In this document: piece after piece, positions 6,511 to 45,545 of the stretch
Numbering within the stretch: position 1 is the stretch's first letter
Layout: every line of letters starts with the position of its first letter
Program-made: the position numbers and the translations under genes
The notes under the pieces: model-generated
Seen by the model: only the letters and a program-made list of their open reading frames with translations
Told to the model about the DNA's origin: nothing
Databases searched by the model: none
Virus record (IMG/VR): IMGVR_UViG_3300044617_000558
Coordinates: 1 to 63,095 of that record
DNA from: a virus
DNA: 63,095 bases
Strand: one strand, 5' to 3'

Positions 6511-6534
6511 CCTGAGCAAGATCTAAAACTGCTC
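6511..6534 (+). repeat. 24-nt 3' hairpin element, copy 1
   Basis: CCT, arm GAGCA, 11-nt loop (AGATCTAAAAC), arm TGCTC. It lies 13 nt after the lipoprotein stop codon. See the finding on this repeat family: nine copies, all exactly 24 nt, all on the sense strand downstream of a gene. Confidence 0.75.
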
Positions 6535-6795
6535 AAAGATTTGCCGGCCCGTTTTCCACAGGTCAGACCAAGTTATCCACAGGTCATTTAAGATGTGAGA
6601 TTAAACACACCTATTGAGCGTCTCACTATTTAAGATTACTCAAAAGTAACTTGAGATTTTTTGTCTAATAGGCTAGACTTACATAGTAAGAAAAAATAAA
6701 TAAAAGAAAGTCTATTCGCTTACGGCGTGTCTAACCGAAAATGTCAGACCCCCATGATAGGATAGAATTATCAACAAAAAGAAAGAGGTTGGCAA
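6535..6795. promoter_or_regulatory. Regulatory spacer with DnaA box
   Basis: Holds GCCGGCC (6543), TTCCACAGG and a perfect DnaA-box sequence TTATCCACA (6573-6581), a TGTGA-N6-ACACA site (6594-6609), a CGGCGTGTC block (6723) and the promoter AATGTCAG-N10-TAGGAT (6740-6763). No gene seen. Confidence 0.5.
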
Positions 6796-7005
6796 ATGTC
6801 AGCAAATGTCTACACAATAGAAAACCTACTTGTAGGAAAAACTTATAAGTCCCGTACACTTACGGGAGAAATTATCTCAGCAGAAAAGTCTGATGTCTGG
6901 TACGCCGATTGCGAGTCTTATCGTGTTCAGGTACGCCCTCACTATCCCTCAGTATTTAATCTAAAAGATACATACCGCATACTTGCAGTAAAGATTGGAG
7001 ACTAA
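6796..7005 (+). CDS. 69-aa hypothetical protein
   Basis: MSANVYTIENLLVGKTYKSRTLTGEII..., predicted beta-barrel-like with a short C-terminal strand. AAAGAGG lies upstream. First gene of the operon to 7967. No family recognised. Confidence 0.6.
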   Translation: MSANVYTIENLLVGKTYKSRTLTGEIISAEKSDVWYADCESYRVQVRPHYPSVFNLKDTYRILAVKIGD

Positions 7006-7009
7006 TAAA

Positions 7010-7186
7010 ATGAATAATTGGAATTGCTATGATTGCTATGATGAGGGTGTACTCTTTTGGGGCAATGGTCATGGAGAATTTGACTCAGAATTTTGTGAGT
7101 GCAACAAGGGCGTGTCTCTTGAAAATGAATACTCAACATGGTATGCTGAAACAGTAATGAACGAATTTTATAAGGAGAATGCATAA
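7010..7186 (+). CDS. 58-aa zinc-binding protein
   Basis: MNNWNCYDCYDEGVLFWGNG...FCECNKG... has CxxC and CxC pairs, suggesting a zinc ribbon. The ATG with GGAG 9-12 nt upstream is chosen over an in-frame TTG. The stop overlaps the next start. Confidence 0.6.
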   Translation: MNNWNCYDCYDEGVLFWGNGHGEFDSEFCECNKGVSLENEYSTWYAETVMNEFYKENA

Positions 7187-7404
7187 TGAACGAATACCTA
7201 TACTCAGTAACTACCACTAACGATAGTGAGACTAAGCCTAATTGGATTGGTCGCTACTCAGATGCTTTATCTGCCGTTGAAGTTTATCAACGATTTGTAG
7301 ACCACGGATTTGCTAACGAATACCGAACAGTTAATCTGTCAGAGCCGTCAGGCAAAATGCATACAAAGATTTTGTATCGCTCAGGAATTGTAGGGGGTAA
7401 GTAA
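7186..7404 (+). CDS. 72-aa hypothetical protein
   Basis: MNEYLYSVTTTNDSETKPNWIGRYSD..., alpha/beta with no diagnostic motif. TAATG overlap with the gene before, and the next ATG follows its stop directly. Confidence 0.55.
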   Translation: MNEYLYSVTTTNDSETKPNWIGRYSDALSAVEVYQRFVDHGFANEYRTVNLSEPSGKMHTKILYRSGIVGGK

Positions 7405-7728
7405 ATGGGAAGTAATTTTGCACAAGACTTAGCAGAAAACATTGACATAAGCCTTGAACAGGCTATCGGTTATCACTTACAAGGTAATCACTATCCACCA
7501 GTACCACTAAGCATGGTTAAGCCTTGCATTGAAGCGCTAGATGCGGCTCGTGAATTAGATGCAATGCGCCAGATTGAGATGCCTGAAGGCGTATTCTATA
7601 AGGGCAAGACTACCGCACCAGCATGGGCTATCATTGAACAACACCACTTAGATGCATGGTTGCCACAAGATGAAAACGAATACTATGGTGAAGATGCAGG
7701 CTATGAACTAGGGTTAGGGTTAGAATAA
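7405..7728 (+). CDS. 107-aa hypothetical actinophage-type protein
   Basis: MGSNFAQDLAENIDISLEQAIGYHLQGNHYPPVP... The YHLQxNHYPPVP motif (about residues 21-34) is typical of a small conserved actinophage family of unknown function. The acidic tail ends in a repeated LGLGLE. Coupled to its neighbours. Confidence 0.6.
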   Translation: MGSNFAQDLAENIDISLEQAIGYHLQGNHYPPVPLSMVKPCIEALDAARELDAMRQIEMPEGVFYKGKTTAPAWAIIEQHHLDAWLPQDENEYYGEDAGYELGLGLE

Positions 7729-7967
7729 TGTCTGATACAATGGTAAACATGGAATTGATCCACGCAGATAACTTAACACCAGACCAAATAATGCTTGGCG
7801 ATTTAATCAAAATTGACAATGACATTGTTGAAGTAATTTTTGTTGAATCTGATTCAACAGGAGATAACTATGACATACAAACACAAAATGAATTTGGTGA
7901 AAAAGAATTTACTCAGTATGCTTATACTGATTTGATTCCATTGTATGTTTTTATTCAAGAAGAATAA
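7728..7967 (+). CDS. 79-aa acidic hypothetical protein
   Basis: MSDTMVNMELIHADNLTPDQIMLGDLIKIDNDIVEV... resembles a small SH3/KOW-like barrel (GDLIKIDNDIVEVIFVE). The function is unknown. Last gene before a strong hairpin. Confidence 0.55.
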   Translation: MSDTMVNMELIHADNLTPDQIMLGDLIKIDNDIVEVIFVESDSTGDNYDIQTQNEFGEKEFTQYAYTDLIPLYVFIQEE

Positions 7968-7975
7968 CTAAAAGT

Positions 7976-8003
7976 ATTTTTATGCACTTCCCCGCATAAA
8001 AAT
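7976..8003. terminator. Bidirectional terminator
   Basis: ATTTTTATGC (7976-7985) and GCATAAAAAT (7994-8003) form a perfect 10-bp stem with A/T tails on both sides, directly after the 6796-7967 operon. Confidence 0.75.
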
Positions 8004-8053
8004 GCCGGCGTGTCGATTTGACATTTTTATACCATTTATGCTAAGATTAGTTT

Positions 8054-8209
8054 ATGACAACAAAAAAAAGCCCCGAGGAATTACGCAGACTTATGGAATT
8101 ACGCCGTAGTAATGCAGCCTCTGCCGTACCCAATAAAAAGAAATATGACAGAAAAAAATGTCAGTCCCTTATGTTAGAATTAAAGAAAGAAAGAGGCCCT
8201 AATGACTAA
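8054..8209 (+). CDS. 51-aa basic protein, leaderless
   Basis: MTTKKSPEELRRLMELRRSNAAS... is strongly basic and helical. TAAGAT, 6 nt, ATG with TTGACA 18 bp further upstream indicates a leaderless transcript. It overlaps the GP88 gene by 8 nt. Possibly a small nucleic-acid-binding protein. Confidence 0.6.
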   Translation: MTTKKSPEELRRLMELRRSNAASAVPNKKKYDRKKCQSLMLELKKERGPND

Positions 8210-8924
8210 ACTACTACGCTCAAAAGATAGAAAGGTGGCTAACCTTGTCACACCCAACGGAAAGCAAGCAAGCATTGCCAATACATTCGGATTACCCGCA
8301 GGAAAGGCTTATTCATGTCCTGGCGCAACGACTGTCTGCGAAAGTGTTTGCTACGCAGGCAAATTGGAAAAGGTCTTTCCAACAGTAAAGAAAAACCTAT
8401 TGCACAATTGGTCATTGCTTAAAGACGCAGACGGTGAAGCCATGGTGCGCTTACTTAATGAGATGATCACAGAATTCAAGAGTGATTGTGTAAAGCGTAA
8501 TGCCCCTATGCTATTCCGTATCCACTGGGACGGAGATTTCTTCAATGATACTTATGCATATGCATGGAAAATAGTTATTGATAAGCATGAGGATGTTCAA
8601 TTCTGGGTTTATACTCGTGTAAAGTCTGCAGCGCTTATTCTTAAGGATGTATCTAATTTATCATTGTATTTTTCTGCTGATAGTGAGAATGTTAAAACTG
8701 CTGTTGATCTAAAAATTAACAGTGGCGTACGCATGGCATACCTTGCTAAGAATTTTGCTATTGGTCAAGCCGATGTAAAAGAAATGATAGGACGACCTGC
8801 TGCTAAGTGTCCTGAGAATAATAAACAAATTCCACTTATCTCAACAAATGGAAGCGCTTGCGTTTCTTGCTCACTTTGTGTATACTCTAAGAGTGACATA
8901 ATTTTTTCTGCAACTAAGAAATGA
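8202..8924 (+). CDS. GP88-family protein
   Basis: A 240-aa protein whose N-terminus (SIANTFGLPAGKAYSCPGAT, about residues 24-43, then CESVCYAGKLEK) matches the GP88 domain of mycobacteriophage and other actinophage proteins. Conserved cysteines at about 39, 46, 50 and the C-terminal CPEN...CVSCSLC cluster could hold a metal or Fe-S centre. The biochemical role of this family is unknown. AGAAAGAGG precedes the start. It shares a leaderless transcript with the basic protein upstream. Confidence 0.75.
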   Translation: MTKLLRSKDRKVANLVTPNGKQASIANTFGLPAGKAYSCPGATTVCESVCYAGKLEKVFPTVKKNLLHNWSLLKDADGEAMVRLLNEMITEFKSDCVKRNAPMLFRIHWDGDFFNDTYAYAWKIVIDKHEDVQFWVYTRVKSAALILKDVSNLSLYFSADSENVKTAVDLKINSGVRMAYLAKNFAIGQADVKEMIGRPAAKCPENNKQIPLISTNGSACVSCSLCVYSKSDIIFSATKK

Positions 8925-8930
8925 GACGAG

Positions 8931-9330: not shown

Positions 9331-9438
9331 TCTCACATTGTGAGAAATGTCAGGTTTCGATTTGACATTTTTATCCCCAAAATGTTATACTTAGGTATAA
9401 CGAAATAACAACCCTCTAACAGAAAAGGAAATAAACAA
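9331..9438 (+). promoter_or_regulatory. Promoter with palindrome
   Basis: TCTCACATTGTGAGA is a perfect palindrome at 9331-9345, followed by TTGACA and TATACT 18 bp apart (about 9376-9405). It drives 9439-10098. Confidence 0.6.
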
Positions 9439-9603
9439 ATGGCAGTAGCAACAGCAACTTACAAGGTAGGCGATACTTTCACTACACAGAAGTCAAAGGT
9501 CACAGGAGTAATCACAGAGATTAACCCACAGGCTAACGGAAATGTTCGTGTAAAGTTAGATGTCAATGGACAGGCTCGCTATACAACTTGGACGGCTAAG
9601 TAA
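9439..9603 (+). CDS. 54-aa hypothetical protein, paralog B
   Basis: MAVATATYKVGDTFTTQKSKVTGVITEI..., clearly related to 9160-9330. AGAAAAGGAA lies upstream. Unknown function; followed 14 nt later by hairpin element copy 2. Confidence 0.6.
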   Translation: MAVATATYKVGDTFTTQKSKVTGVITEINPQANGNVRVKLDVNGQARYTTWTAK

Positions 9604-9617
9604 TCTAATTACTAATT

Positions 9618-9641
9618 CCTGAGCAAGAATAAAAACTGCTC
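9618..9641 (+). repeat. 24-nt 3' hairpin element, copy 2
   Basis: GAGCA/TGCTC stem with loop AGAATAAAAAC, 14 nt after the stop at 9603 and 35 nt before the next gene. Confidence 0.75.
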
Positions 9642-9675
9642 AACTCAACCCCCTAACAGAAAAGGAACAGACCCA

Positions 9676-10098
9676 ATGGCACGACAAAAAGCAATTAGCG
9701 TAAAAATCGCAACACCAAAGGTAATCAAGGCACTAGAAACTCGTCTTGCAAAGTTGCAATCAGACTACGCATCACAAGAAGCCAACGAAGCAAAGCACGA
9801 AAAGGCTTTGGAGAAGTGGCGCAAAGAAGTAGCAAAGTTCGCTATGGCTAATTTCGCTAAGGCAGAAAACTTCCGCACAAACTATCGCTCATGGAACAAG
9901 ACACTTAATGTTGATTTCGATTTAACAGTTAGTGAAGCAGACTTTCCTAGAGAGCCTGAGAAGGACTACGAAGTTCTCCACCGCCACTCATACAATGAGA
10001 TGAAAGAGGAATTGGAAAACGCAATTCGTATTCTAAAGATGACAGATGAGGAAACAGTAAGCACAAGCACTTACAATGCTATTGCTCGTTATCTCTAA
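9676..10098 (+). CDS. 140-aa coiled-coil protein
   Basis: MARQKAISVKIATPKVIKALETRLAKLQSDYASQ... Long charged heptad-like helices cover about residues 15-65, then a short ordered region and a final helix. AGAAAAGGAA upstream. No family recognised; possibly a scaffold or nucleic-acid accessory protein. Confidence 0.65.
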   Translation: MARQKAISVKIATPKVIKALETRLAKLQSDYASQEANEAKHEKALEKWRKEVAKFAMANFAKAENFRTNYRSWNKTLNVDFDLTVSEADFPREPEKDYEVLHRHSYNEMKEELENAIRILKMTDEETVSTSTYNAIARYL

Positions 10099-10151
10099 AT
10101 AAATCAACACGCCCCAAAGAAATGCGTGTATAAATAAATAGATTGGGACAA

Positions 10152-10175
10152 CCTGAGCAAGTTGTGAAACTGCTC
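10152..10175 (+). repeat. 24-nt 3' hairpin element, copy 3
   Basis: GAGCA/TGCTC stem with loop AGTTGTGAAAC, 53 nt after the stop at 10098 and just before the next ribosome site. Confidence 0.75.
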
Positions 10176-10199
10176 ACCCCAACTAACTTAAGGAATAAA

Positions 10200-10577
10200 A
10201 TGTCACAAAACAAAAACTCAGTAAAGCACTTGGCTTCACTAACAGAACACCTACAACCAAACGAAAACATCATTTCTTCGATCTTTGGTGTCTATGAGAC
10301 AAAGCGTATGGGAGATAAAACAATTAGAAATGGAGTCTTTGCTCTTACAGAAACAAGACTGCTATTCTTTGCAAAGAAGATGTTTGGTTATGATTTAGAA
10401 TCGTTTAAGTTTGACAAGATTAGTTCTATTGAACGCTCAAAGGGTGCCCTTGGTCACTCTATAACAGTTTACACATCTGGAAACGAAGTTCATGTTAAGT
10501 GGATTAACGATGGAGACTTTGTTGATTTCATGGATAACTTTGACGTTGCCCTTGAAAATAAGGTCTTGGTGTCATAA
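10200..10577 (+). CDS. Bacterial PH-domain-like protein
   Basis: A 125-aa protein. The pattern NGVFALTETRLLFFAKK...YDLESFKFDKISSIERSKG...HSITVYTSGNEVHVKW is characteristic of bacterial PH-like domains (bPH type), a seven-strand sandwich that binds peptides or lipids. The start at MSQNKNS has AAGG 8 nt upstream; a longer reading would include the hairpin element. Function in the phage unknown. Confidence 0.65.
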   Translation: MSQNKNSVKHLASLTEHLQPNENIISSIFGVYETKRMGDKTIRNGVFALTETRLLFFAKKMFGYDLESFKFDKISSIERSKGALGHSITVYTSGNEVHVKWINDGDFVDFMDNFDVALENKVLVS

Positions 10578-10580
10578 ACT

Positions 10581-10670
10581 ATGGTTAAGTTCGCTGCATT
10601 CATATTTTTACTTTTAACATCAATCATATGGGTGCCCGTACTTTTTGTATTACTTGCTCTAATTTTTTAG
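10581..10670 (+). CDS. 29-aa membrane micro-protein
   Basis: MVKFAAFIFLLLTSIIWVPVLFVLLALIF, a single membrane helix, 3 nt after the PH-like gene. Likely co-translated. Unknown role. Confidence 0.5.
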   Translation: MVKFAAFIFLLLTSIIWVPVLFVLLALIF

Positions 10671-10749
10671 ACAGTATTCGCCAGGCTGATTAGGGCGATA
10701 ATAGAAATACTATAGAGCCAGATCACACCATCTGTAAGAAGTGTAACTA

Positions 10750-10773
10750 CCTGAGTATGTATCAAAACTGCTC
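10750..10773 (+). repeat. 24-nt 3' hairpin element, copy 4
   Basis: Stem GAGTA/TGCTC: the C-to-T change makes a T-G wobble that still pairs in RNA. Loop TGTATCAAAAC. It lies 79 nt after the stop at 10670. Confidence 0.7.
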
Positions 10774-10782
10774 CCCGAAAGG

Positions 10783-10816
10783 GTCCTTGACAAATGTCAG
10801 TGGTACCCAGTATAAT
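10783..10816 (+). promoter_or_regulatory. Promoter for 10848-11276
   Basis: TTGACA (about 10787-10792) with 18 bp to TATAAT (10811-10816). The same DNA also reads AATGTCAG-N10-TATAAT, so the TTTGTCAG-type element and a normal -35 box are combined here. Confidence 0.65.
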
Positions 10817-10847
10817 TAAATTAACCAACTAACAGAAAGAGGCCCCC

Positions 10848-11276
10848 ATGGACCAAATAACAGTAACAGAAGAACCAAAGCACTACATGACACGAGAGTT
10901 TTTAGAAACAACTCTTGCACAAAACAAAGAACGCATTGCCAATCTTGAATCACACATTCAAACCGTAACACAACGTTCATACGGCGAGGCTGCAGAGCGC
11001 AACCGTATGCGTAACGAAATGCAAGAGTGGACCTTGGAAGCGCTAGAGAGTGGCACTTTTGATGAAAGTACCGCACAAGAGATTGCAGACATTTGCGGCT
11101 TTGAATTAACAAAAGAATTTGAATTGGAAGTTACAGTTCTTTATTCAATTACAGTCAATGCTCGTGATGAAGAGAGTGCACAAAATTCAATTCACGATAT
11201 TGATTTCGATACTGTTCAATATGACTCAGATAATATTTCTTGGTTATCATCCAGTGTTGATAGAATAGATATTTAG
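10848..11276 (+). CDS. 142-aa hypothetical protein
   Basis: MDQITVTEEPKHYMTREFLETTLAQNKERIANLESHIQ... The N-terminal half is a charged coiled coil with several Arg and the C-terminal half is beta-rich and acidic (FELEVTVLYSITVNARDEESAQ). AGAAAGAGG precedes the start. No family recognised. Confidence 0.6.
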   Translation: MDQITVTEEPKHYMTREFLETTLAQNKERIANLESHIQTVTQRSYGEAAERNRMRNEMQEWTLEALESGTFDESTAQEIADICGFELTKEFELEVTVLYSITVNARDEESAQNSIHDIDFDTVQYDSDNISWLSSSVDRIDI

Positions 11277-11294
11277 TAGGGGGCTACTAATAAA

Positions 11295-11318
11295 CCTGAG
11301 CATGTTTTTAAACTGCTC
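11295..11318 (+). repeat. 24-nt 3' hairpin element, copy 5
   Basis: GAGCA/TGCTC stem with loop TGTTTTTAAAC, 18 nt after the stop at 11276. It is followed by CCGGC, TTTGTCAAGTCGACAC and a TGTGA-N6-TCACT site (11378-11393). Confidence 0.75.
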
Positions 11319-11438
11319 CTCTATGCCCTCAAAAATTTTCCGGCACTAAAACTTTCATTTGTCAAGTCGACACACCATGTGATTAAGATCACTTTAAGAA
11401 ATGTCCGATTTGTCCTTGTTTAACTATCCCGATTTGCA

Positions 11439-11462
11439 TTTGTCAGCCCTCCCGTGTATACT
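11439..11462 (+). promoter_or_regulatory. TTTGTCAG-N10-TATACT promoter
   Basis: Drives the DUF932 gene. A TGTGA-N6-TCACT site lies about 80 nt upstream of the expected start. AATGTCCGATTTGTCC at 11399 is a repeat shared with 160 and (inverted) 12655. Confidence 0.6.
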
Positions 11463-11493
11463 TAGATTAACAACAACAAAAAGGAGAAAACTC

Positions 11494-12510
11494 ATGGCAC
11501 ATGAACTAGAATCACAAAATGGTAAGGCTTCATTCGCTTCATTTCGTGAACCTGCTTGGCATGGATTGGGTACCGTATTCACAGAAGAAAAAACAACAAA
11601 AGAAATGTTAGATTTGGCTAATCTTTCTAATTGGAATGTTCGTCTGGAAGATTTGGAAACCCCATCACATTTAACAAGTGACAAAAACTATCAGTACGTT
11701 TTGCGTACTAACCCTACTGATAACACACAGACCGACATTCTTGGTGTCGTTGGTGAGCGCTATCATGTAATGCAGAATGAAGATTTATTCTCATTCGGTG
11801 ATAACATTCTAGACGGCGGAGGTCGTTGGGAAACGGCTGGCTCAATCAAGGGTGGTCGTGTCGTATTCGGTGCATTAGCACTAGAGCGTGAAACTGTCCT
11901 AGACCCTAACGGTGTTGCGGATAAGGTAAAGACTTATTTACTTATCAACACATCACATGACGGCTCAATCGCTATTCAAGCAAGCATTACACCTGTTCGT
12001 GTTGTGTGCGCTAACACTCTTAACCTTGCACTAAACACAACTAAGAAAAAGAATGGTGTCAAGCAATCTTTCAAGATTCGCCACACTCAGACCGCTTCTG
12101 GTAAGGTTGCCGTTGCTCGTGAGACTCTTGGTCTTGCTCATAAGTACATGGACTCATTTGATGTTATGGCTAACGCTATGATTCAGAAAGAAATCACAGC
12201 GCAAGATTTCAATAACATCATTCTTGCTGCATACCCTAAGCCTGAAAAAGATTCTAAGGGTGCTTTCAAGAAATGGGAAAATAAGGTTGATGTTATCAAT
12301 GACATCTACACAGGCGAGTTTAATGGTATGATTGCTGGTAATGCTTGGGGTGCTTTCAATGCACTAACTGAGCGCCTTGATTGGTATCGTTCTGCTCGTG
12401 GTGGTTCTAACGAATCTATCCTTGCAAGCGCAAGTGGTTTTGACCCTGCAATTAACGCAGAAAAAAATCGTTTGCTAAAAGTTGTGCAAAATGTTTTGCA
12501 GATTGCATAA
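11494..12510 (+). CDS. DUF932 phage/plasmid-like protein
   Basis: A 338-aa protein of normal length for DUF932. Recognisable parts are AWHGLGTVF (about 21-29), the VVGERYHVMQNEDLFSFGDNIL block, and VRVVCANTLNLAL. DUF932 proteins are common in phages and plasmids; their role is unknown though often placed with recombination or replication genes. AAGGAG precedes the ATG. It is the longest gene in the rightward region and seems to be transcribed alone. Confidence 0.85.
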   Translation: MAHELESQNGKASFASFREPAWHGLGTVFTEEKTTKEMLDLANLSNWNVRLEDLETPSHLTSDKNYQYVLRTNPTDNTQTDILGVVGERYHVMQNEDLFSFGDNILDGGGRWETAGSIKGGRVVFGALALERETVLDPNGVADKVKTYLLINTSHDGSIAIQASITPVRVVCANTLNLALNTTKKKNGVKQSFKIRHTQTASGKVAVARETLGLAHKYMDSFDVMANAMIQKEITAQDFNNIILAAYPKPEKDSKGAFKKWENKVDVINDIYTGEFNGMIAGNAWGAFNALTERLDWYRSARGGSNESILASASGFDPAINAEKNRLLKVVQNVLQIA

Positions 12511-12521
12511 TTAAAAAAATT

Positions 12522-12545
12522 CCTGAGCAAGAATTAAAACTGCTC
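12522..12545 (+). repeat. 24-nt 3' hairpin element, copy 6
   Basis: GAGCA/TGCTC stem with loop AGAATTAAAAC, 11 nt after the DUF932 stop and 9 nt before tRNA-Asp. Position between an mRNA and a tRNA fits a processing or end signal. Confidence 0.75.
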
Positions 12546-12554
12546 TCCATAACT

Positions 12555-12628
12555 GGAGCGTTAGCATAGTTGGTTAATGCGCTACCCTGTCACGGTAGAG
12601 ATCACGGGTTCAAGTCCCGTACGCTTCG
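12555..12628 (+). tRNA. tRNA-Asp (GTC)
   Basis: Cloverleaf readable by eye: acceptor GGAGCGT/ACGCTTC, anticodon stem CTACC/GGTAG with loop CTGTCAC (anticodon GTC), T-arm ACGGG-TTCAAGT-CCCGT. No CCA is encoded. Confidence 0.92.
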
Positions 12629-12630
12629 CA

Positions 12631-12785
12631 AAAGTGGCCGGCAGGACAAATAGTACAAATCGGACATACAAAAATGTCAATCTTAAATTAAATTACGAAG
12701 AACTAAAAAAACCCCCAGAAAAATGTCAAACTTAAAAATCTTTACGATACTTGACATTTATCCCCCAAACCCCTATAATTAGTAT
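12631..12785. promoter_or_regulatory. Spacer with leaderless promoter
   Basis: Contains GGCCGGC (12637), the inverted AATGTCCGATTTGT motif, two AAAAATGTCAA(T/A)CTTAAA repeats, and TTGACA-17 bp-TATAAT (about 12751-12779) whose start would coincide with the ATG at 12786. Confidence 0.65.
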
Positions 12786-12950
12786 ATGACCCAAACAATG
12801 AGAACGATTGACGAATTAGTCAATGAGATGTATATGGACAATGAGCCACATCTCGAATACATGGAAAATATGAACGGTGGGGATTGTGATTGTGCAATTC
12901 ACACTACCTTGAATACAATAGTCAAATACTGGTGGGATGAGGAGAACTGA
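12786..12950 (+). CDS. 54-aa acidic protein, leaderless
   Basis: MTQTMRTIDELVNEMYMDNEPHLEYM... with CDCAIH near residue 40. TATAAT then exactly 6 nt then ATG. First of an operon of overlapping genes to 13323. Unknown function. Confidence 0.6.
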   Translation: MTQTMRTIDELVNEMYMDNEPHLEYMENMNGGDCDCAIHTTLNTIVKYWWDEEN

Positions 12951-27318: not shown

Positions 27319-29367
27319 ATGAGCGAAGAAAAGTGTCCTTACACTGGACAAACCTATACAACTGAAGCCAGAACCAATAAGGACTGGTGGCCTAATCAAT
27401 TAGACTTATCGTCATTACGGAAGCATTCAGAAAAGTCTGACCCCATGGGAGATAATTTTAACTATGCTAATGAGTTTAATGCTTTAGACCTTGACGCTAT
27501 TAAGTATGATATCAATACACTTCTAACTACCTCGCAAGATTGGTGGCCTGCAGACTACGGCAACTATGGTCCATTTTTTATTCGTATGGCATGGCATAGT
27601 GCTGGTACATACAGAGTAACTGATGGTCGTGGTGGTGCTGGAGAAGGTCTACATAGATTTGCTCCACAAAACTCTTGGCCAGATAACGGCAACCTTGATA
27701 AGGCCCGTCGTTTGTTATGGCCGATCAAGCAGAAGTACGGTAAGAAGATTTCCTGGGCAGACCTAATGATTCTTGCAGGTAACGTTGCTCTTGAGAACAT
27801 GGGCTTCAAGACATTTGGTTTTGCTGGTGGTCGTGCAGATGTATGGGAGTCTGATGACACATACTGGGGTACAGAAAAAGAATGGCTTGCTGATAACCGT
27901 TATAGCGGAGATCGTGAGTTAGAAAATCCTCTTGCTGCAGTACAAATGGGTCTCATCTATGTAAACCCAGAAGGACCTGATGGAAACCCTGATCCAGTTC
28001 TTTCTGCAAGAGACATTCGTGAAACATTTGCTCGAATGGCGATGAATGATGAAGAGACAGTTGCACTAATTGCAGGTGGTCATGCATTTGGTAAGGCACA
28101 CGGTGCAGGAGATCCCTCACATGTTGGTCCAAACCCAGAGGCTGCTCCTCTTGAAGACCTTGGTCTTGGATGGAAGAATTCATTTGGCAAGGGTAATGCA
28201 GAAGATACTATAACAAGTGGTATTGAAGGTGCATGGACTGCAACTCCTACTAAGTGGGACAACTCATACCTTAAGTTATTGTTTAAGTATGATTGGACAC
28301 AAACAAAGTCACCTGCTGGTGCAACACAATGGATTCCAACAGATGAGTCTGCTGCTAATTTAGTTCCAGATGCACACATTGAGGGTAAGTTCCATGCTCC
28401 AGTTATGACAACTGCAGACCTTGCATTGAGGTTTGATCCTGAGTATGAAAAGATTTCACGCAGATTCCTTGAGGACTTTGACTACTTCTCAGATCAGTTT
28501 GCTCGTGCATGGTTTAAATTAACTCATCGTGATATGGGTCCAATTTCTCGTTATCTTGGCAAAGAAGTTCCTTCTGAGAGACTAATATGGCAGGATCCAG
28601 TTGGAGATGTTACACGGTACAGTCTAACGCAAGAAGATGTTGATGCAATTAAGGAAAAAATAATTAATTCAGGACTGTCGGTATCTGATTTAGTAACTAC
28701 TGCTTGGGCATCTGCTTCTACATTCCGAAAGACAGACAAGCGTGGTGGTGCTAACGGTGCTCGTATTGTTCTTGCTCCTCAAAATACTTGGGCAGTTAAT
28801 GATTACGATGCTATTGATAGGGTCGTAACAGTATTAGAAAAAATTAAGGAAGAGTTTAACGTTTCTCTCGCTGATCTAATTGTGTTTGCTGGTTTAGTTG
28901 GTGTTCAACTTGCTGCTCACAACTCTGAGGTCGGAGTAGTTATTAGTGCTAAATTTAGTCGTGGAGATGCAACTCAAGAACAAACAGATGTAGAATCGTT
29001 TGCAGTTCTTGAGCCAAAGTTTGATGCATTCCGTAACTATATTGATCCAAGCATTACTGCACCAGAAGAGGTCTTGCTAGTAGAAAAGGCAAACCTATTG
29101 GGACTAACTCCAGTAGAAATGGTTCTTCTCTTATCTGGAATGAGAATGCTAAGCAACAACAAGTTAGATAATAGTTATTTAATCAAACTGTTGTCCTATA
29201 TTAATGCTGAAGAAGCAGTAGATGTTCCTCGTGTAGACCTTATCATTGCTTCTAACTCAGAACTTAGAGCGATTGCTGAAGTTTATGCTTCTAGTGATGC
29301 TAAAGAAAAGTTTGTTCATGATTTTGTTTCAGCATGGACAAAGGTAATGAACGCAGATCTGTTTTAA
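27319..29367 (+). CDS. Catalase-peroxidase KatG
   Basis: A 682-aa bifunctional haem catalase-peroxidase that removes hydrogen peroxide. The N-terminal haem domain is complete: distal Arg89, Trp92 and His93 ([11 protein letters not shown]), Tyr214 ([10 protein letters not shown]) and Met240 ([12 protein letters not shown]) of the Met-Tyr-Trp adduct needed for catalase activity, and proximal His255 ([14 protein letters not shown]). The C-terminal domain (about 400-682) is present. It is slightly shorter than bacterial KatG (about 720-740 aa), mainly at the N-terminus. It has its own TATAAT (27282-27287) and AGAAAGAG ribosome site after four tRNAs, and ends with hairpin element copy 8. Probably acquired from a host; acI-type Actinobacteria carry katG. 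Confidence 0.95.
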
Positions 29368-29383
29368 TATAAACAACCATAGT

Positions 29384-29407
29384 CCTGGGTATGACTTAAA
29401 ACTACCC
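29384..29407 (+). repeat. 24-nt 3' hairpin element, copy 8 (covariant)
   Basis: Same 24-nt layout, 16 nt after the katG stop, but with stem GGGTA/TACCC in place of GAGCA/TGCTC: two base pairs changed with compensation. Loop TGACTTAAAAC keeps the AAAC end. This is the best evidence that the element works as RNA. Confidence 0.75.
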
Positions 29408-29411
29408 AATA

Positions 29412-29540
29412 TTACTTTTTAGGATGCTTTGGTTCATATGGTGCGATCTTAGACTTAACTCGACCATCTTTGTATAGTCTAACAATCCATCCATCTTTAA
29501 TCTGAATAGGATTAAACGCTGCTGCTTTTTTCTTTGGCAT
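29412..29540 (-). CDS. 42-aa basic protein
   Basis: MPKKKAAAFNPIQIKDGWIVRLYKDGRVKSKIAPYEPKHPKK, a beta-hairpin with basic ends, similar to small phage proteins placed next to structural genes. Its ATG overlaps the upstream stop (TAATG). Convergent with katG. Confidence 0.6.
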   Translation of the reverse strand: MPKKKAAAFNPIQIKDGWIVRLYKDGRVKSKIAPYEPKHPKK

Positions 29541-30005: not shown

Positions 30006-30647
30006 CTAGCCCTGAGTAATCTCTGGGTCGTCAGAAAATGCTATGCTTGCTGAATGCCTTGGGCACATTGACTCAACGCTATGGACTACACCCTTTGGTA
30101 TATACGCTGCATCTCCTTCACTTAACAATACTTCATAGTTTATTTCTTTATTGTCGTGAAAAACCTTCCATAGACTTTGCCCACTACCCTGAATAAATAA
30201 TCTGTCTTGTTGGTCTGAGTGAACTGCTGGATCCCAAAACTCAGTACCCCATCCATCTACACCATTATCATGTATTGTAAGTTCTTGTGGAGTCTTTTTA
30301 GGGTTGTCTGTATTAAATTTTGAAAAAAGGCTAGACAGATTATTGTCTGTCATTGCATTATTGTTTCTGTTTATAAAATGAATAATCATCATTGAAAAAA
30401 GTACATGCCCCTTATGAGATAAAGAAATATCTGAGACTGCTTTTTTGTAATACTCTAAAACCCTTGCATCATTTTCAATAACCATCGTGCCAAAGGAGTT
30501 GTAGACTATTGTTTCAGTTTCTTTTGCACGATCATAAAAATCGTTTATATCTTCCCAAGAAGGAAAATCTTTGTAGAAATTTTTTACAACATGCAGCCTT
30601 CTTTCTTTTGTGGCTGATATTAGGTCTTCTTTTGTCATTAAGGTCAT
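30006..30647 (-). CDS. Cupin/JmjC-like oxygenase A
   Basis: A 213-aa protein whose C-terminal half is a cupin: H143-S-D145 (VHSDQQDRLFIQGSGQSLWKVF), GDAAYIPKGVVHS with H189, and R197. This is the JmjC/cupin_4-like arrangement of 2OG hydroxylases acting on ribosomal proteins or tRNA, though shorter. Paralog at 31657. TATAAT lies 5 nt before the ATG. Confidence 0.65.
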   Translation of the reverse strand: MTLMTKEDLISATKERRLHVVKNFYKDFPSWEDINDFYDRAKETETIVYNSFGTMVIENDARVLEYYKKAVSDISLSHKGHVLFSMMIIHFINRNNNAMTDNNLSSLFSKFNTDNPKKTPQELTIHDNGVDGWGTEFWDPAVHSDQQDRLFIQGSGQSLWKVFHDNKEINYEVLLSEGDAAYIPKGVVHSVESMCPRHSASIAFSDDPEITQG

Positions 30648-31068: not shown

Positions 31069-31092
31069 GAGCAGTTTATAGACTTGCTCAGG
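31069..31092 (-). repeat. 24-nt 3' hairpin element, copy 7
   Basis: Minus-strand GAGCA/TGCTC stem with loop AGTCTATAAAC, about 90 nt downstream of the hsp20 stop. Between them are two more hairpins, GTTGCT/AGCAAC and CCAGGGT/ACCCTGG. Confidence 0.7.
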
Positions 31093-31183
31093 TCTCCCAG
31101 GGTGCGACCCTGGCTTATCCGTACTCAGCAATAAGGTTGCTAAAAGCAACTGCATGTATCATGACGGAATGTTATCTATTATA

Positions 31184-31600
31184 CTACTTAATTTTAATAG
31201 ACTTGGGCTTTTTATCTTCAGGAACAATGCGTACTACATGAACATGCAGCATGCCATCCTTAAGTTCTGCAGAAGTTACTTCCATATATTCTCCCAGTGC
31301 AAAAGATCTTACGAACTTTCTTCCTGCGATACCCTTATGTACTACCTCTGCATCTGTTACTTCTACAATTTCACCCTTGATAATTAGTGTTCCATTATCT
31401 ACGGATACATCAATATCTTCCTTTGAAAAACCAGCAATAGCCAGCGAGATCTGATATGTGTCTTCATCTAGTTTAAGAAGATCATACGGAGGATATGACT
31501 GTGAGTTTGTTTTGTGTGCAGTATTTAGGCGATTTAACTCTCTGTTAAAGCCAATAAAAAAAGGATCATTAAATAGATCCATAGCGTACTTTGTTACCAT
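31184..31600 (-). CDS. Small heat-shock protein Hsp20
   Basis: A 138-aa IbpA-type small heat-shock protein. The alpha-crystallin core spans about residues 38-130: YDLLKLDEDTYQISLAIAGFSKEDIDVSVDNGTLIIKGE, then FVRSFALGEYMEVTSAELKDGMLHV and a final IxI-like KSIKIK. Such proteins hold unfolded proteins for refolding. AAAGGGG precedes the ATG. Phage Hsp20 genes are known in aquatic phages; here it lies between two oxygenase genes. Confidence 0.9.
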   Translation of the reverse strand: MVTKYAMDLFNDPFFIGFNRELNRLNTAHKTNSQSYPPYDLLKLDEDTYQISLAIAGFSKEDIDVSVDNGTLIIKGEIVEVTDAEVVHKGIAGRKFVRSFALGEYMEVTSAELKDGMLHVHVVRIVPEDKKPKSIKIK

Positions 31601-31656: not shown

Positions 31657-32271
31657 TTATAGCACAGGTTCATCAGAAAAGGCTATACTTATTGAGTGTC
31701 TTGGACCTACAGACTCAACACTGTGCCTTACACCTTTTGGAATATATGCTAGGTCACCTGGGTTTAAGATAATTGCATCAATCAAGTTTTCTGAATCATC
31801 AAAAAGTCTCCAGAGGCTTTGCCCCCCGCCCTGAACAAAGAACCTATTCTCTCTGTCAAAATGCACTTTAGGATTCCAAAAATCTCCATCTATCCCATGA
31901 TCTTTAATAGTAATGTTATCTGGAATTTTTTTAGGGTTGTTTTCACAAAACCTATTAAATAAACTTAAACAGTCTGGATCACTAATAATATTATTATTTC
32001 TATTGATAAAATGCACTATGATCATTCCAAAAAGAGGGTACCCTTTATAAACTCTATTAATGCTATCCAATACATCTTTATAAAAGTCAAATATAATTTC
32101 TTTTTCTTGTGCCTGAAATGATGCAAAAGACATGTAGACTATCTTTTTATCTAAATCGTATACATTTCCTATGTCTGACCAGGACGGTGTTTTTGTAAGA
32201 AAATTTCTTGATACGTAAATCTTTTTTTGCTCTGTTGCTAAGGCTATGTCATTCCTTGTGATTGTCGTCAT
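31657..32271 (-). CDS. Cupin/JmjC-like oxygenase B, leaderless
   Basis: A 204-aa paralog of 30006-30647: H137-F-D139, GDLAYIPKGVRHS with H183, and R191; the FFVQGGGQSLWRLF strand is conserved. Duplicated pair flanking the HNH and hsp20 genes. TATAAT, 6 nt, ATG on the minus strand, back to back with the promoter of 32314. Confidence 0.65.
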   Translation of the reverse strand: MTTITRNDIALATEQKKIYVSRNFLTKTPSWSDIGNVYDLDKKIVYMSFASFQAQEKEIIFDFYKDVLDSINRVYKGYPLFGMIIVHFINRNNNIISDPDCLSLFNRFCENNPKKIPDNITIKDHGIDGDFWNPKVHFDRENRFFVQGGGQSLWRLFDDSENLIDAIILNPGDLAYIPKGVRHSVESVGPRHSISIAFSDEPVL

Positions 32272-39023: not shown

Positions 39024-39785
39024 TTAAAGACCCAACTGCTTGCGTTTTTCAGTAGCCGAAATAGCATGAATGTCTGCCCCCAAATCTACTTGTTCAATCT
39101 TGTATCCTACATCACGACCATATACAATGTTAGTAATGTTTGGTAGTCTTAATACTAATGCACCATCCATAAATTCATCCTTTGCAATATAACCCTTTAC
39201 CTGATCAAAGGTCAGTGGGTCCTTATCGCTTGTCTTGTAGGTATTACGGACTCCAAGCAGTACTTGGTCTGTTCTCTTCCCCGCTTCTTTATAAAGGGCG
39301 TGGTGGCCTTCGTGCCAAGGCTGGTACCTACCCAGCATAAGTGTTGTAGGTGCAGACCAATCATGAAGACTAAACTTATCAATGATGTGAGATGCCTTTG
39401 CTTCAGCATCTAGGTTGTGACTAATAAATGATACATCAAACTCTGTTGGTCGTTCAAACATCTTATTTGTATCTTCAAATCTACCCTCAGCAATTGTATC
39501 CATAAACACCAGGATGTCTGGCTTACCAAATGCTGCACGAGTTAAATCTGTAGGGCATACAAAGTCAACGATTACTGGAGCAACACCTTGCTTATCAATA
39601 AGACGAGCCATCTCTCCCATACGACGAGACTGTTCTAGTCTATCTTCTGGTGCAAACCCCAAGTCTGAGTTGACTGTTGCACGAACCTCATCTGCATTAA
39701 GATGAATAGCATTAATGCGTTCTTTAAGTGCTTTTGCTAATTCTGTTTTACCAGAACCTGGCAGTCCAATAATCTGAATAATCAT
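39024..39785 (-). CDS. APS kinase / nucleotidyltransferase fusion
   Basis: A 253-aa protein. Residues about 1-140 match adenylylsulfate kinase (CysC): P-loop GLPGSGKT (7-14), then ADEVRATVNSDLGFAPEDRLEQSRRMGEMA, the classic substrate-binding stretch. It would make PAPS, the sulfate donor. Residues about 147-253 form a cytidylyl/NMN-adenylyltransferase-like domain with GRYQPWHEGH (HxGH at 158-161) and a C-terminal ISATEKRK resembling the ISSTxxR motif. ATP sulfurylase is also an HxGH enzyme, so a CysC plus sulfurylase-like role is worth testing. PAPS would feed the two sulfotransferases. Confidence 0.8.
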   Translation of the reverse strand: MIIQIIGLPGSGKTELAKALKERINAIHLNADEVRATVNSDLGFAPEDRLEQSRRMGEMARLIDKQGVAPVIVDFVCPTDLTRAAFGKPDILVFMDTIAEGRFEDTNKMFERPTEFDVSFISHNLDAEAKASHIIDKFSLHDWSAPTTLMLGRYQPWHEGHHALYKEAGKRTDQVLLGVRNTYKTSDKDPLTFDQVKGYIAKDEFMDGALVLRLPNITNIVYGRDVGYKIEQVDLGADIHAISATEKRKQLGL

Positions 39786-40116: not shown

Positions 40117-40120
40117 AACA

Positions 40121-40699: not shown

Positions 40700-40707
40700 T
40701 TTTATAT

Positions 40708-42470: not shown

Positions 42471-42513
42471 GTCTGGCCTCCTTTGTCTCTTATATATTAT
42501 AGCATCTTGACAA

Positions 42514-43179
42514 CTAATTGTCCATACTCTTGTACAACTGCTTTAGTCCCTTTAATGTTCCTATGTCCATATATTTTCCACCTGGTCTTACAGCCAAAAT
42601 GTTAGAACCGTCTTGTATCCATTCTTTTAATTGTTTTCCTGGATGTTCTAGTTCTGGATTCAAATATCTGATCATATTTTTACGAAACAACATTGTCCCC
42701 CACATATCTGGGTAATCACAATTCTCTTTTTTGTCTTCTGAATACAGGACTTTATCTCCTGAAACCTGAACCTGCCCTACACGACCTTTTAGTTCATCTC
42801 CACATTCCCAAACACCAAGCACCAGGTCTGCATTTGTTTCTTTAAACATTTCCTTATATATATTACCTTGAGCATTAAGGATGTAGGTGTCTGGCATTCC
42901 AACCAAAACAGTATCGTTATAGTCTCCTACCATAAACTTAATTGCCTCAGACATTGTTGATGGCTCATGAACAATAAGTTTAATATTCATATTCATATTC
43001 TCAACAATTGGAACCCATTCTGATCTTGTAGATACCCTAACCTCATCACAGAACTCAAGCATTTGTTCTACATGCCACTGTAGCAAAGATCTTTCATCAG
43101 ATATCGGCAAACAAAATTTTGGTATGCCACCAACTCTTGATGATCTTCCAGACGCTGGTAATACTCCTATTATAGCCAT
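42514..43179 (-). CDS. Sugar-phosphate nucleotidyltransferase
   Basis: A 221-aa NTP-transferase fold protein: VLPASGRSSRVGGIPKFCLPI (about 5-25, the GxGxR...K signature region), TVLVGMPDTYI (metal Asp), and DIGTLKGL near the end. Makes NDP-sugars. The ATG with GGAAGG 6 nt upstream is preferred over a TTG two codons earlier. Next to the carbamoyltransferase, so an NDP-sugar route for glycan decoration is likely. Confidence 0.8.
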   Translation of the reverse strand: MAIIGVLPASGRSSRVGGIPKFCLPISDERSLLQWHVEQMLEFCDEVRVSTRSEWVPIVENMNMNIKLIVHEPSTMSEAIKFMVGDYNDTVLVGMPDTYILNAQGNIYKEMFKETNADLVLGVWECGDELKGRVGQVQVSGDKVLYSEDKKENCDYPDMWGTMLFRKNMIRYLNPELEHPGKQLKEWIQDGSNILAVRPGGKYMDIGTLKGLKQLYKSMDN

Positions 43180-43195
43180 TGGCAACCTTCCTATA

Positions 43196-44629
43196 TTAAC
43201 CTATAATTTTTGTATTATAGGTTTTCTCCCATGCAATTATATCAGTTTGATCATTTAATAAAGGTTGACCCTTGATATTTAAACTAGTGTTAAGTAATAC
43301 TGGCACACCAGTTTCAATATAAAACTTATTAATTGCTCTCCATAGACCACGATGCTGGTTCTTGTTCACAGTCTGAACTCTTGATGTACCATCTGCATGA
43401 ACCACAGAAGGTATCTTGTCAGGCTGTAGGCACTTAACCGTATACTGCATGTAAGGGCTTGTAAAGTCCATATCAAACCATTTGGATGCACATTCCTCCA
43501 TGACTACTGGAGCAAATGGTCTAAACAACTCTCTTTGTTTAATTAGATTAACCTTGTCTTTAATGTTTGGATCTCTTGGATCTGCAAGTATGCTTCTATT
43601 TCCAAGTGCTCTTGGACCGTACTCTGCTCTTCCTGTTGCTACTGCTACGATTCCGTCTTTTAATATACCGTCCACGATTTGCTGTACTGGATATTCTCCT
43701 CCAAGATCATAACCAAGATATGGAGTCTTCCAGTCAAGATGCTTTCCGTATAGGGCTGCTGCTGCACCCAAAGAACTACCAGCGTCTCCTGGGTTTGGCA
43801 TGATCCAAATCATATCGAATATATTCCAAAGCAATGTATTTGCTGAAGAATTAAGAGCACATCCACCCATGAACACCAAATTATTTTTACCAGTCATTCT
43901 TTTTGCCATACGCATAAATTGATTTAATCTTTGCTCGTATACTACCTGAACTGCTGCTGCGATATCAAATTTGTCTTTCTCGGTAATTACCATTCCCCAG
44001 TCATTTATTCCTTTATGAAAGTTATACTTTTGTTGATCATACTCTGGGAAATATTCATCTACTTCTTTGTAATATCTTCTCCAGTCTCCGTATGCAGCCA
44101 TGCCCATCATAATATATTCTTCTTGGTTTGGCATAAGGCCAATTAACTGAGTGAAGGCTGAATAGAATAATCCAAAACTAACTGGATAGTTTTGCTTATA
44201 CTTAAGTTTAATCTTGTCTCCTTCACCAACCCAAATTGTTGATGTATTAAACTCACCAATTGCGTCTAGCACTACAATACAAGCATCGTTAAACGAACTG
44301 GTATAGTACCCTGCTGCTGCATGAGAGTAGTGATGGCTAAAGTTTTTTCTTGGTAAATCTCCAAGTTCTGTAGATTCAAACCACGGTCTGTCTCCACCGA
44401 ACCCACCCCTAGTCTTTACTCTAAGTTTCTTAAGTAAAGGCTTTTCGTAATATGCTATTTGATCTGGATATCCATATTGCAGGGCATCTTTAATTAGTTC
44501 TTTATTTGTGAACCAGTCATTTTTTTGTTTACTATATCTTTCTGAATGCCCAGCAAAAAGTATCTCACCATCTTTTATTAGAGATACAGATGCGTCATGT
44601 GTAGTCTCATTAACACCCAGTATTAGCAT
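43196..44629 (-). CDS. NodU/CmcH-type O-carbamoyltransferase
   Basis: A 477-aa protein. N-terminal Kae1-like domain: MLILGVNETTHDASVSLIKDGEILFAGHSERYSKQKND, HHYSHAAAGYYTSSFNDACIVVLDAIG; C-terminal carbamoyltransferase part with RAEYGPRALGNRSILADPRDP and LFRPFAPVVMEE. These enzymes transfer carbamoyl from carbamoyl phosphate to sugar hydroxyls. Shorter than many homologs (about 550-600) but all main blocks are present. AATTCGGAG upstream. Confidence 0.9.
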   Translation of the reverse strand: MLILGVNETTHDASVSLIKDGEILFAGHSERYSKQKNDWFTNKELIKDALQYGYPDQIAYYEKPLLKKLRVKTRGGFGGDRPWFESTELGDLPRKNFSHHYSHAAAGYYTSSFNDACIVVLDAIGEFNTSTIWVGEGDKIKLKYKQNYPVSFGLFYSAFTQLIGLMPNQEEYIMMGMAAYGDWRRYYKEVDEYFPEYDQQKYNFHKGINDWGMVITEKDKFDIAAAVQVVYEQRLNQFMRMAKRMTGKNNLVFMGGCALNSSANTLLWNIFDMIWIMPNPGDAGSSLGAAAALYGKHLDWKTPYLGYDLGGEYPVQQIVDGILKDGIVAVATGRAEYGPRALGNRSILADPRDPNIKDKVNLIKQRELFRPFAPVVMEECASKWFDMDFTSPYMQYTVKCLQPDKIPSVVHADGTSRVQTVNKNQHRGLWRAINKFYIETGVPVLLNTSLNIKGQPLLNDQTDIIAWEKTYNTKIIG

Positions 44630-44640
44630 TAGTCTCCGAA

Positions 44641-44727
44641 TTAATAAATATAGTCATTATCTCTAGGAAGTTTTTTAATTCTTTTCTTAATAATGTAGTA
44701 CCTTATCATCTTAATTATTTTTTTCAT
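44641..44727 (-). CDS. 28-aa basic micro-protein
   Basis: MKKIIKMIRYYIIKKRIKKLPRDNDYIY, strongly basic amphipathic helix. It starts next to the oxygenase stop and ends before the carbamoyltransferase ribosome site. Confidence 0.5.
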   Translation of the reverse strand: MKKIIKMIRYYIIKKRIKKLPRDNDYIY

Positions 44728-44728
44728 T

Positions 44729-45394
44729 TTATAATAGTGGGAACCAGTGCTGTTCTGGTATGGTCCTTCCTGCAGATATAATTACATCTAAAGGTTGAAC
44801 ATCATACGCAATAGTAATTCTTGGCCCAGACCAATCCCAGTCACCCATAGCATGTGGGTGTCCTACTTCTGAAACAACTAGACGATTGTTTTTATTTACA
44901 TTATCAACAATTCGTGAAGGATCATTAAACAGTTTGTAATGAGTTATGGATGGTTCTGCATTTACACAATAGTATCCGTGAAAGTTTGGAGCGCCTGGGC
45001 TTCCATGATCATGGTAGTCTAACTTTCCAACCTCTGCTCTATTTATGTTAAACCAGCCTTGGATGTAGTAGTTCTGCTTTTCAAAATCTACGTCGTAGTA
45101 TTCGCATGCCTCTTTAACTGTGTCTGATATTGCCTTGTTTAGTTTGTATAAAGACTTATGGTAAAACTGAAAGACATTATACTCTTTCCACTTAACTGTT
45201 GACAAACTTCCAGACTCTAAAAAAATTCCCTTGTCTTTTTCCATTGAGGTTACGCCAGGCAAGGTTGCATTTTCAATCATCGCATACTTTTTTTCTAAAA
45301 ATCTAGACAACTCTTCTAAATCATTATCTAGATATCTTTCAAAAAATCTATGCTCTTTTGTAAACTTTGGTGCTGGCATGTTTGAATTTAACAC
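44729..45394 (-). CDS. 2OG-Fe(II) oxygenase-like protein 7
   Basis: A 221-aa protein: YIQGWFNINRAEVGKLDYHDHGSPG (about 110-134, His/Asp/His cluster), VGHPHAMGDWDWSGPRITIAYDVQP (H179/H181, R192). This matches phage 2OG oxygenases of the cyanophage-like subfamily rather than the prolyl-hydroxylase-like ones. AAAGGAGA upstream. Next to the carbamoyltransferase. Confidence 0.6.
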   Translation of the reverse strand: MLNSNMPAPKFTKEHRFFERYLDNDLEELSRFLEKKYAMIENATLPGVTSMEKDKGIFLESGSLSTVKWKEYNVFQFYHKSLYKLNKAISDTVKEACEYYDVDFEKQNYYIQGWFNINRAEVGKLDYHDHGSPGAPNFHGYYCVNAEPSITHYKLFNDPSRIVDNVNKNNRLVVSEVGHPHAMGDWDWSGPRITIAYDVQPLDVIISAGRTIPEQHWFPLL

Positions 45395-45445
45395 TGTCTA
45401 TCTCCTTTGTTGTTTTACTTCTATGTAACCATTATACACTATTTG

Positions 45446-45518
45446 CTGCCCCACCTGGCCTCGATCCAGGGACATCCGAATTAACAGTTCGGCACTCTAC
45501 CAACTGAGTTATAGGGCA
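45446..45518 (-). tRNA. tRNA-Asn (GTT)
   Basis: Minus-strand cloverleaf: acceptor TGCCCTA/TGGGGCA, anticodon stem CCGAA/TTCGG with loop CTGTTAA, T-arm CCTGG-ATCGAGG-CCAGG. Discriminator G; no CCA encoded. Confidence 0.92.
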
Positions 45519-45521
45519 ATG

Positions 45522-45545
45522 GGGCAGTTTAAAGTCATGCCTAGG
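45522..45545 (-). repeat. 24-nt 3' hairpin element, copy 9
   Basis: Minus-strand copy 8 nt after the subtilase stop and 3 nt before tRNA-Asn. Arms AGGCA/TGCCC with one mismatch at the base; loop TGACTTTAAAC keeps AAAC. Confidence 0.6.

Follow-up and report, generated by a model that had tools for sequence, protein, structure and literature searches.

The window analysed here is the whole virus record IMGVR_UViG_3300044617_000558 of IMG/VR, 63,095 nt of DNA read as one strand. It carries nine copies of a short RNA element, most of them close behind open reading frames (ORFs). This element folds as an H-type pseudoknot with two crossing helices, some 28 nt long. A preliminary description, made from the DNA letters, had listed the nine copies as CCT, a 5-nt arm, an 11-nt loop and a matching arm; all nine were found again at the same places and in the same layout. 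A pattern search allowing up to three mismatches returned exactly nine copies, far above chance (100 shuffles averaged 0.40, with a maximum of 2). A relaxed structural scan based on pairing and letters recovered the same nine and no further one; in the reversed window it gave three weak matches, all without the conserved letters.

The terminase and DUF932 proteins of the window share 55% and 53% identity with proteins of Streptomyces phages of the Stanwilliamsviridae, so that an actinobacterial host is probable. In the Streptomyces relatives Peebs and StarPlatinum, the element is absent from the homologous gaps.

The coordinates of the copies and of their neighbours are collected in the table. 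The copies had been placed on the sense strand, 8–91 nt after a stop codon; this holds for eight of them, and copy 4 (10750) alone has no close upstream stop, standing 172 nt behind a 144-aa ORF. The arms match in every copy except copy 9 (45522, minus strand), where AGGCA/TGCCC leaves an outer A-C pair. Copies with these same arms also occur in other phages, after the homologous gene and before a tRNA-Asn. The two copies said to touch tRNA genes are indeed linked to tRNAs, but at gaps of 9 nt (tRNA-Asp) and 3 nt (tRNA-Asn), in both cases on the 5′ side of the tRNA. Among homologues of the Hsp20-like gene, the element often stands 8–25 nt after the gene, compared with 91 nt for copy 8 in the window.

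Table. Pseudoknot copies, adjoining genes and other features of the window
Feature	Position	Strand	Remarks
Pseudoknot copy 1	6509..6535	+	AT/AT outer helix; arms GAGCA/TGCTC; stop of ORF 6021-6497 13 nt upstream
Pseudoknot copy 2	9615..9642	+	Stop of 54-aa ORF 14 nt upstream; then ORF 9676-10098
Pseudoknot copy 3	10148..10176	+	53 nt downstream of ORF 9676-10098
Pseudoknot copy 4	10748..10773	+	Arms GAGTA/TGCTC, with a U-G pair
Conserved hairpin-like stretch	10774..10815		Behind copy 4; GGGTCCTTGACAAATGTCAGTGGTACCC; recurs in loci L042 and L012
Pseudoknot copy 5	11292..11318	+	18 nt after ORF 10848-11276; DUF932 gene next
DUF932 gene	11401..12510	+	Pfam E 6.8e-48; copy 6 at its 3′ end
Pseudoknot copy 6	12518..12545	+	11 nt after DUF932 gene; tRNA-Asp downstream
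tRNA-Asp	12555..12629	+	RNase P cut would fall just 3′ of copy 6
Catalase-peroxidase gene katG	27319..29367	+	Pfam peroxidase E 7.4e-66; host-like; copy 7 at its 3′ end
Pseudoknot copy 7	29381..29408	+	Arms GGGTA/TACCC; katG stop 16 nt upstream; convergent ORF ends 3 nt beyond
42-aa ORF	29412..29540	-	MPKKKAAAFNPIQIKDGWIVRLYKDGRVKSKIAPYEPKHPKK; from reading the sequence, shorter than the length limit of the window ORF list; convergent with katG
JmjC/cupin-type protein	30006..30647		Host-like
Pseudoknot copy 8	31069..31095	-	Hsp20-like gene upstream
Hsp20-like gene	31184..31600	-	Upstream of copy 8; name from reading the protein sequence, no profile behind it
JmjC/cupin-type protein	31657..32271		Host-like
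Kinase	39024..39785		phrog_10255; host-like
NodU/CmcH-like carbamoyltransferase	43196..44629		phrog_1601; host-like
tRNA-Asn	45445..45518	-	RNase P cut would fall just 3′ of copy 9
Pseudoknot copy 9	45522..45548	-	8 nt after protease-like gene; tRNA-Asn downstream
Protease-like gene	45554..46501	-	phrog_3677 E 8.5e-12; upstream of copy 9

Fold and covariation of the element

The element was originally read as a 24-nt hairpin. The pairing of its arms stands, but a simple hairpin is ruled out by a second helix that covaries between the flank and the loop. When the flanks are printed beside the copies, the 2–4 bases 5′ of CCT prove complementary to the loop bases after W-G, and two or three of the five loop bases once called variable pair with the bases preceding CCT. 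The architecture consists of a first helix S1 (n-3 n-2 n-1 C : G n n n), a first loop L1 = C, a second helix S2 of 4–6 bp, (T)RRNYA : TRNYY(A), a junction base W and a third loop L3 = nnAAAC. All nine window copies have an S1 of 3–5 bp, the C-G pair counted, and in four of them S2 is longer by one pair, formed between the T of CCT and the A after the arm. S2 is closed by an A-U pair; its outer pair is optional, as in copy 9.

Copies for comparison were drawn from a pattern scan of viral contigs, which matched at least 120 loci, many of them multi-copy, and supplied 153 unique viral copies among the matches listed. The search pattern left the S1 positions free, and the test of S1 pairing is thus unbiased. 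The first two S1 pairs form in 153/153 copies and the third in 80%, as against about 45% when loops are shuffled among copies; at the second pair GC, AU, CG and UA all occur. In an alignment of 118 distinct copies, 97.7% of the pseudoknot cells are paired (77.5% after shuffling), and the covariation score is 0.570, compared with 0.185 for shuffled copies and at most 0.13 when the partners are slid by 1–3 bases. S2 was addressed by a second scan with the arms left free: of 102 additional sites, 78 have every one of the four free positions paired, as against about 2 expected, with 32 arm combinations such as AGCTA/TAGCT, GCGCA/TGCGC and GGTCA/TGACC. Compensatory changes, reported earlier for the arms, are thereby established for both helices.

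The letters C, W-G and AAAC are invariant and single-stranded, which is more than pairing requires. Together with the repeated copies in one genome, they would suit recognition by a protein of the host or the phage, acting in antitermination, translational repression or processing by an endonuclease. The element, however, spans phages and bacteria of many phyla, and coremin, the eukaryotic viral RNA compared with it below, acts without a protein cofactor in vitro. The adenines of L3 in pseudoknots are commonly ascribed to packing into the groove of S2. A protein binding site is therefore very unlikely. For the protein-binding signal once suggested, no dedicated phage protein is needed as an explanation, though no direct search for one was made.

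At gathering scores, Rfam 15 returned only tRNAs, neighbouring hammerheads and chance matches for the window and 20 element loci; for window positions 9400–12,800, no family for the element appeared at E values up to 5. The RNA family is apparently undescribed.

Distribution in phages and bacteria

Virus records carry one to six copies each, and the reversed-pattern control gave none. Named phages with the element infect Lactobacillus, Staphylococcus, Streptococcus, Anoxybacillus, Moorella, Paracoccus, Synechococcus, Nostoc and Cylindrospermopsis. Further carriers are phages of Mycobacterium, Arthrobacter, Cellulosimicrobium and roseobacters (including SIO1), crAss-like phages, microviruses and one lineage of Vibrio phages. 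The host groups thus comprise Firmicutes, actinobacteria, cyanobacteria and roseobacters, and phages of Bacteroidota are probably among the carriers. A 37-variant query of 28 billion bases of Escherichia coli genomes found no copy. Among sampled genomes, the element occurs in 6/200 Bacilli (the anchor not counted) versus 0/198 Enterobacterales. In Polynucleobacter it was found on one contig with four copies; other Burkholderiales gave 0/119. This contig (locus L158, contig C50 of G003) is 16 kb long and is binned with Polynucleobacter, but is probably a phage contig. Its four copies are packed into 1.4 kb, and two of these copies have hammerheads.

The element had also been proposed to be phage-specific, which did not hold, as it occurs in bacterial contigs too. 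The number of these matches looked like chance. Of the 91 unique matches with paired arms, however, about 90% also have S1 paired, so most of them are real and mere chance was rejected. A conserved tiny ORF of about 15–30 aa, with the core ‘PRVAHCsEGC’ or ‘RPVAHCKEGC’, precedes 32 of the 92 bacterial-contig copies (loci L131, L134, L140, L144, L155, L156, L165-L170, L175, L178, L179, L181, L184, L191, L192, L197, L207, L210-L212, L222, L227, L229, L232, L237, L239, L241 and L243). The AHCxxGC motif of this ORF begins with a codon that lies exactly 31 nt before CCT in all 32 loci. By reading of the sequences, the neighbours of the tiny ORF vary and include Rrf2-like regulators, a universal stress protein, Hcp-like proteins, a metal ATPase and a class II ribonucleotide reductase. 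The tiny ORF may encode a regulatory peptide that is linked to the knot.

Position relative to genes and possible function

ORFs, including those of the downstream neighbours, were called mechanically. Only 3% of 169 viral copies lie inside a same-strand ORF, against 38.5% of random positions. The nearest stop codon upstream is at most 30 nt away in 63% (random, 3.3%), and there is a start within 100 nt in 48.5% (10.1%) and a tRNA within 40 nt in 11% (0.2%). The distance from stop codon to CCT (n = 188) has a hard floor at 8 nt: 46 copies stand at exactly 8, two fall below and the rest tail off. The first paired base typically lies 5–7 nt past the stop codon, which by established geometry would be approximately where mRNA enters a terminating ribosome. 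The knot evidently has to stay folded during translation of the upstream gene. The stop codon is most often TAA, and several spacing classes put TGA inside the element. Stop-codon readthrough was rejected for this reason, and because many copies have tRNAs behind them.

The floor of 8 nt, the pile-up there and the constant 31 nt to the tiny-ORF codons speak for a ribosome roadblock or insulator. The knot, sitting at the mRNA entry, would prevent readthrough, sliding or re-initiation into a tRNA, ribozyme or terminator, or would pause termination; coremin slows scanning ribosomes in vitro (PMC10520033). Such a floor is, however, expected of any structure that is kept folded while a gene is translated, and a device of this kind should serve E. 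coli and its phages too, whose genomes, on the E. coli side, gave no copy. Bacterial ribosomes, when translating, open structures far stronger than this one. As the general role of the element, an action on ribosomes is rather improbable.

A transcription terminator or pause signal has one point in its favour: outside the window, a T-rich stretch follows 12–20% of copies, about four to seven times the roughly 3% expected. More than 80% of copies have no such stretch, including all nine in the window, where the preliminary description had already argued from the missing T-tract that this is not an ordinary terminator. A terminator scan behind katG found nothing, and S2 is weak, a helix of 4–6 bp with an 11-nt loop. 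Termination or pausing can hardly be the function. A promoter for a phage RNA polymerase was set aside as well: the copy behind katG is directed toward a convergent ORF, and the arms covary.

Neighbouring cleavage sites bear on which message the element serves. Immediately 3′ of the knot, Rfam detects type III hammerheads at L158 (two, with E 2.6e-8 and 1.1e-5) and at L024 (one, E 0.0019), and in all three the cleavage site is 6 nt 3′ of the knot; in hammerheads judged by eye, it is 7–8 nt from the knot in L135 and L014 and 13 nt in L011. Cleavage 3′ of the knot means that the knot remains on the upstream product. Likewise, 2–14 nt separate the knot from a tRNA behind it, and RNase P would leave the knot on the end of the upstream mRNA. 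Behind katG, copy 7 ends 3 nt before the convergent ORF, and there is no downstream gene to protect. Gene linkage points the same way in the first set, where 326 pairs keep the upstream gene and change the downstream one, against 35 (coding sequences) plus 58 (tRNAs) for the reverse. The DUF932 gene carries the element in 23 loci, followed by tRNA-Asp or by some nine other downstream neighbours.

Type III hammerheads in viral contigs, picked regardless of the knot (from L281-L399), have a stable hairpin 4–12 nt before the cleavage site in 30 of 43 cases, with a peak at 5–6 nt; the controls gave 31/215 at random positions and 3/43 at sites 60 nt upstream. The knot substitutes for the hairpin in this slot. 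None of 129 hammerheads picked regardless of the knot has one upstream; the knot thus occupies this slot only rarely. This pattern suggests that ribozyme-made, hairpin-capped mRNA 3′ ends may be a general phage device; no mention of hairpins preceding phage hammerheads was found in the published hammerhead study.

A different context is seen in eight annotated Firmicute phages. In 8/8 the element directly precedes the scaffold gene, with the capsid gene next in line, and the upstream gene varies. Between the element and the scaffold gene, a second structured leader is present in L253, L270, L271, L278 and L248; the loop of its hairpin could apparently pair with bases upstream of the ribosome-binding site, e.g. 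CGTT/AACG in L253 and L270.

A roadblock acting on either side fits both the upstream and the downstream contexts, and is proof for neither direction. The likeliest function of the element is that of a mechanical roadblock for processive RNA-degrading enzymes that sets stable mRNA ends, a proposal to which we give about an even chance. The knot follows a translated gene closely, at a spacing that would leave it just clear of a ribosome on the stop codon. As a 3′ cap, the mode suggested mainly for the window copies, it would come into play after a cut a few nucleotides downstream, made by RNase P, by a self-cleaving hammerhead or by another endonuclease; 3′-to-5′ exonucleases would then halt at the knot on the end of the upstream message. 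Ahead of the scaffold and capsid genes in Firmicute phages a 5′ shield is more likely, in which the knot would stop RNase J and protect the capsid message, as coremin does against Xrn1. A role at mRNA ends or in processing, as first proposed, remains the best reading for the window copies.

A pure 5′-to-3′ exonuclease barrier, that is, a prokaryotic exonuclease-resistant RNA (xrRNA), would have RNase J stop at S1 so that downstream capsid mRNA, tRNA or gene RNA accumulates. It draws on the near-identity with coremin (PMC10520033), the location before scaffold and capsid genes, the finding of most matches in phages of RNase J hosts and none in E. coli, and the ability of an unrelated xrRNA to stop RNase J1 (PMC5760640). 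At hammerheads and tRNAs, however, cleavage parts the element from the downstream product, and the katG copy has no same-strand gene behind it. The crAss-like phages carry the element although their likely hosts lack RNase J by the profile used (0/13 Bacteroidia above its cut-off). As a sole function, such a barrier is unlikely.

The crAss-like case also weighs against the two-sided roadblock, and so do several other results. The correlation with RNase J is imperfect in the Vibrio phage lineage that bears the element. Phage tRNAs generally show no excess of stable hairpins in front of them (6/39 versus 4/39). In the second, arm-free set, gene linkage is much weaker, at 21 versus 15 pairs, or 16 versus 4 for ORFs of at least 60 aa. 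Some bacterial copies overlap the stop codon of the tiny ORF and have a terminator-like hairpin behind them, where a 3′ cap seems superfluous; the tiny-ORF copies suggest that a ribosome-linked use also exists.

Comparison with known RNAs

Small H-type pseudoknots are known from several systems. ToxI-type antitoxins of type III toxin-antitoxin systems are such knots from phages and bacteria, arranged as tandem repeats before toxN; copies of the present element are single and dispersed, and no shared toxin gene was seen. Readthrough and frameshift pseudoknots (murine leukaemia virus gag-pol, luteoviruses) stand 5–9 nt behind the codon. They share the H-type fold, the spacing and the A-rich third loop with the phage element, which differs in needing no open frame after the stop. 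The 3′-stabilising hairpins, such as repetitive extragenic palindromic (REP) elements and the hairpins before phage hammerheads, also lie behind stop codons and keep a short 3′ tail after cleavage. They are, however, plain hairpins of any sequence, whereas the phage element is a pseudoknot with conserved letters.

Within the open-licence literature searched, exonuclease-resistant RNAs are described only in eukaryotic viruses; the search found no bacterial or phage xrRNA, prokaryotic coremin or RNase J roadblock, and an earlier description elsewhere is possible. Flaviviral xrRNAs are likewise compact pseudoknotted RNAs regarded as mechanical exonuclease blocks, but have a larger ring fold with a three-way junction, occur only in RNA viruses and show no sequence relation to the element (PMC5760640). 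One of them stops bacterial RNase J1 in vitro, and such blocks are therefore possible for bacterial enzymes (PMC5760640).

The closest likeness is to coremin, GUCCGAAGACGUUAAACUAC, an RNA of plant, fungal and other eukaryotic viruses that stalls the 5′-to-3′ exonuclease Xrn1 in vitro (PMC10520033). It is known from eukaryotic RNA viruses only, and phages and bacteria go unmentioned in that paper. With the 5′ strand of S2 removed, the phage consensus in its commonest letters reads GUCCGAAGACGUUAAACUAC. The first hairpin of coremin (hp1, GUC/GAC) corresponds to S1, in which GU/AC is the commonest type. Its spacer GUUAAACUAC corresponds to the phage nn(n)AAACURC; in AAACUAC, AAAC and U were fixed by the search, the next position is G in 0.87 and A in 0.13, and C follows in 97%. 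Apart from the middle of the loop, all 20 coremin letters agree with the phage consensus, and in two natural copies no letter outside the loop deviates. Both elements occur behind stop codons and in intergenic regions. The coremin loop ends in A-D, and a first C and a last A-W are present in the phage element. Longer loops are permitted, and the functional, Xrn1-resistant heptaloop CGAGUAA (PMC10520033) includes the phage arm GAGUA.

At two points the likeness does not extend so far. The coremin loop YGAD/YGNNAD has G in second place, where phage copies have T (274/279) or C under a search pattern that demanded T/C. Coremin also requires a second hairpin, hp2, directly downstream (PMC10520033), but the 30 nt behind the phage element hold an hp2-like hairpin in 52/279 copies versus 46 after shuffling, with no better fold. 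The phage element has instead its 4–6 bp helix between loop and spacer, and S2 may replace hp2. Given the lack of hp2 and a second loop base that the search pattern itself restricted, the element is not filed as coremin, although it probably works like it.

The broader proposal, which we hold tentatively and with somewhat less than even confidence, is that the element belongs to a class of exonuclease-resistant RNA which is widespread among DNA phages and bacteria and shares core fold and letters with coremin. Sitting exactly at the border of the terminating ribosome, this knot of some 28 nt would set mRNA ends once a ribozyme, RNase P or an endonuclease has cut. If this is true, phages actively set message ends and half-lives with a 28-nt module, a prokaryotic counterpart of the eukaryotic viral RNAs. 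It would account for the fixed short distance at which many phage tRNAs and some hammerhead ribozymes stand after genes, and would offer a compact tool for RNA stabilisation in bacteria. The element also makes it testable how segments of one phage operon’s mRNA reach different levels. Phages and plant and fungal viruses would then have arrived at the same solution, by descent or by convergence.

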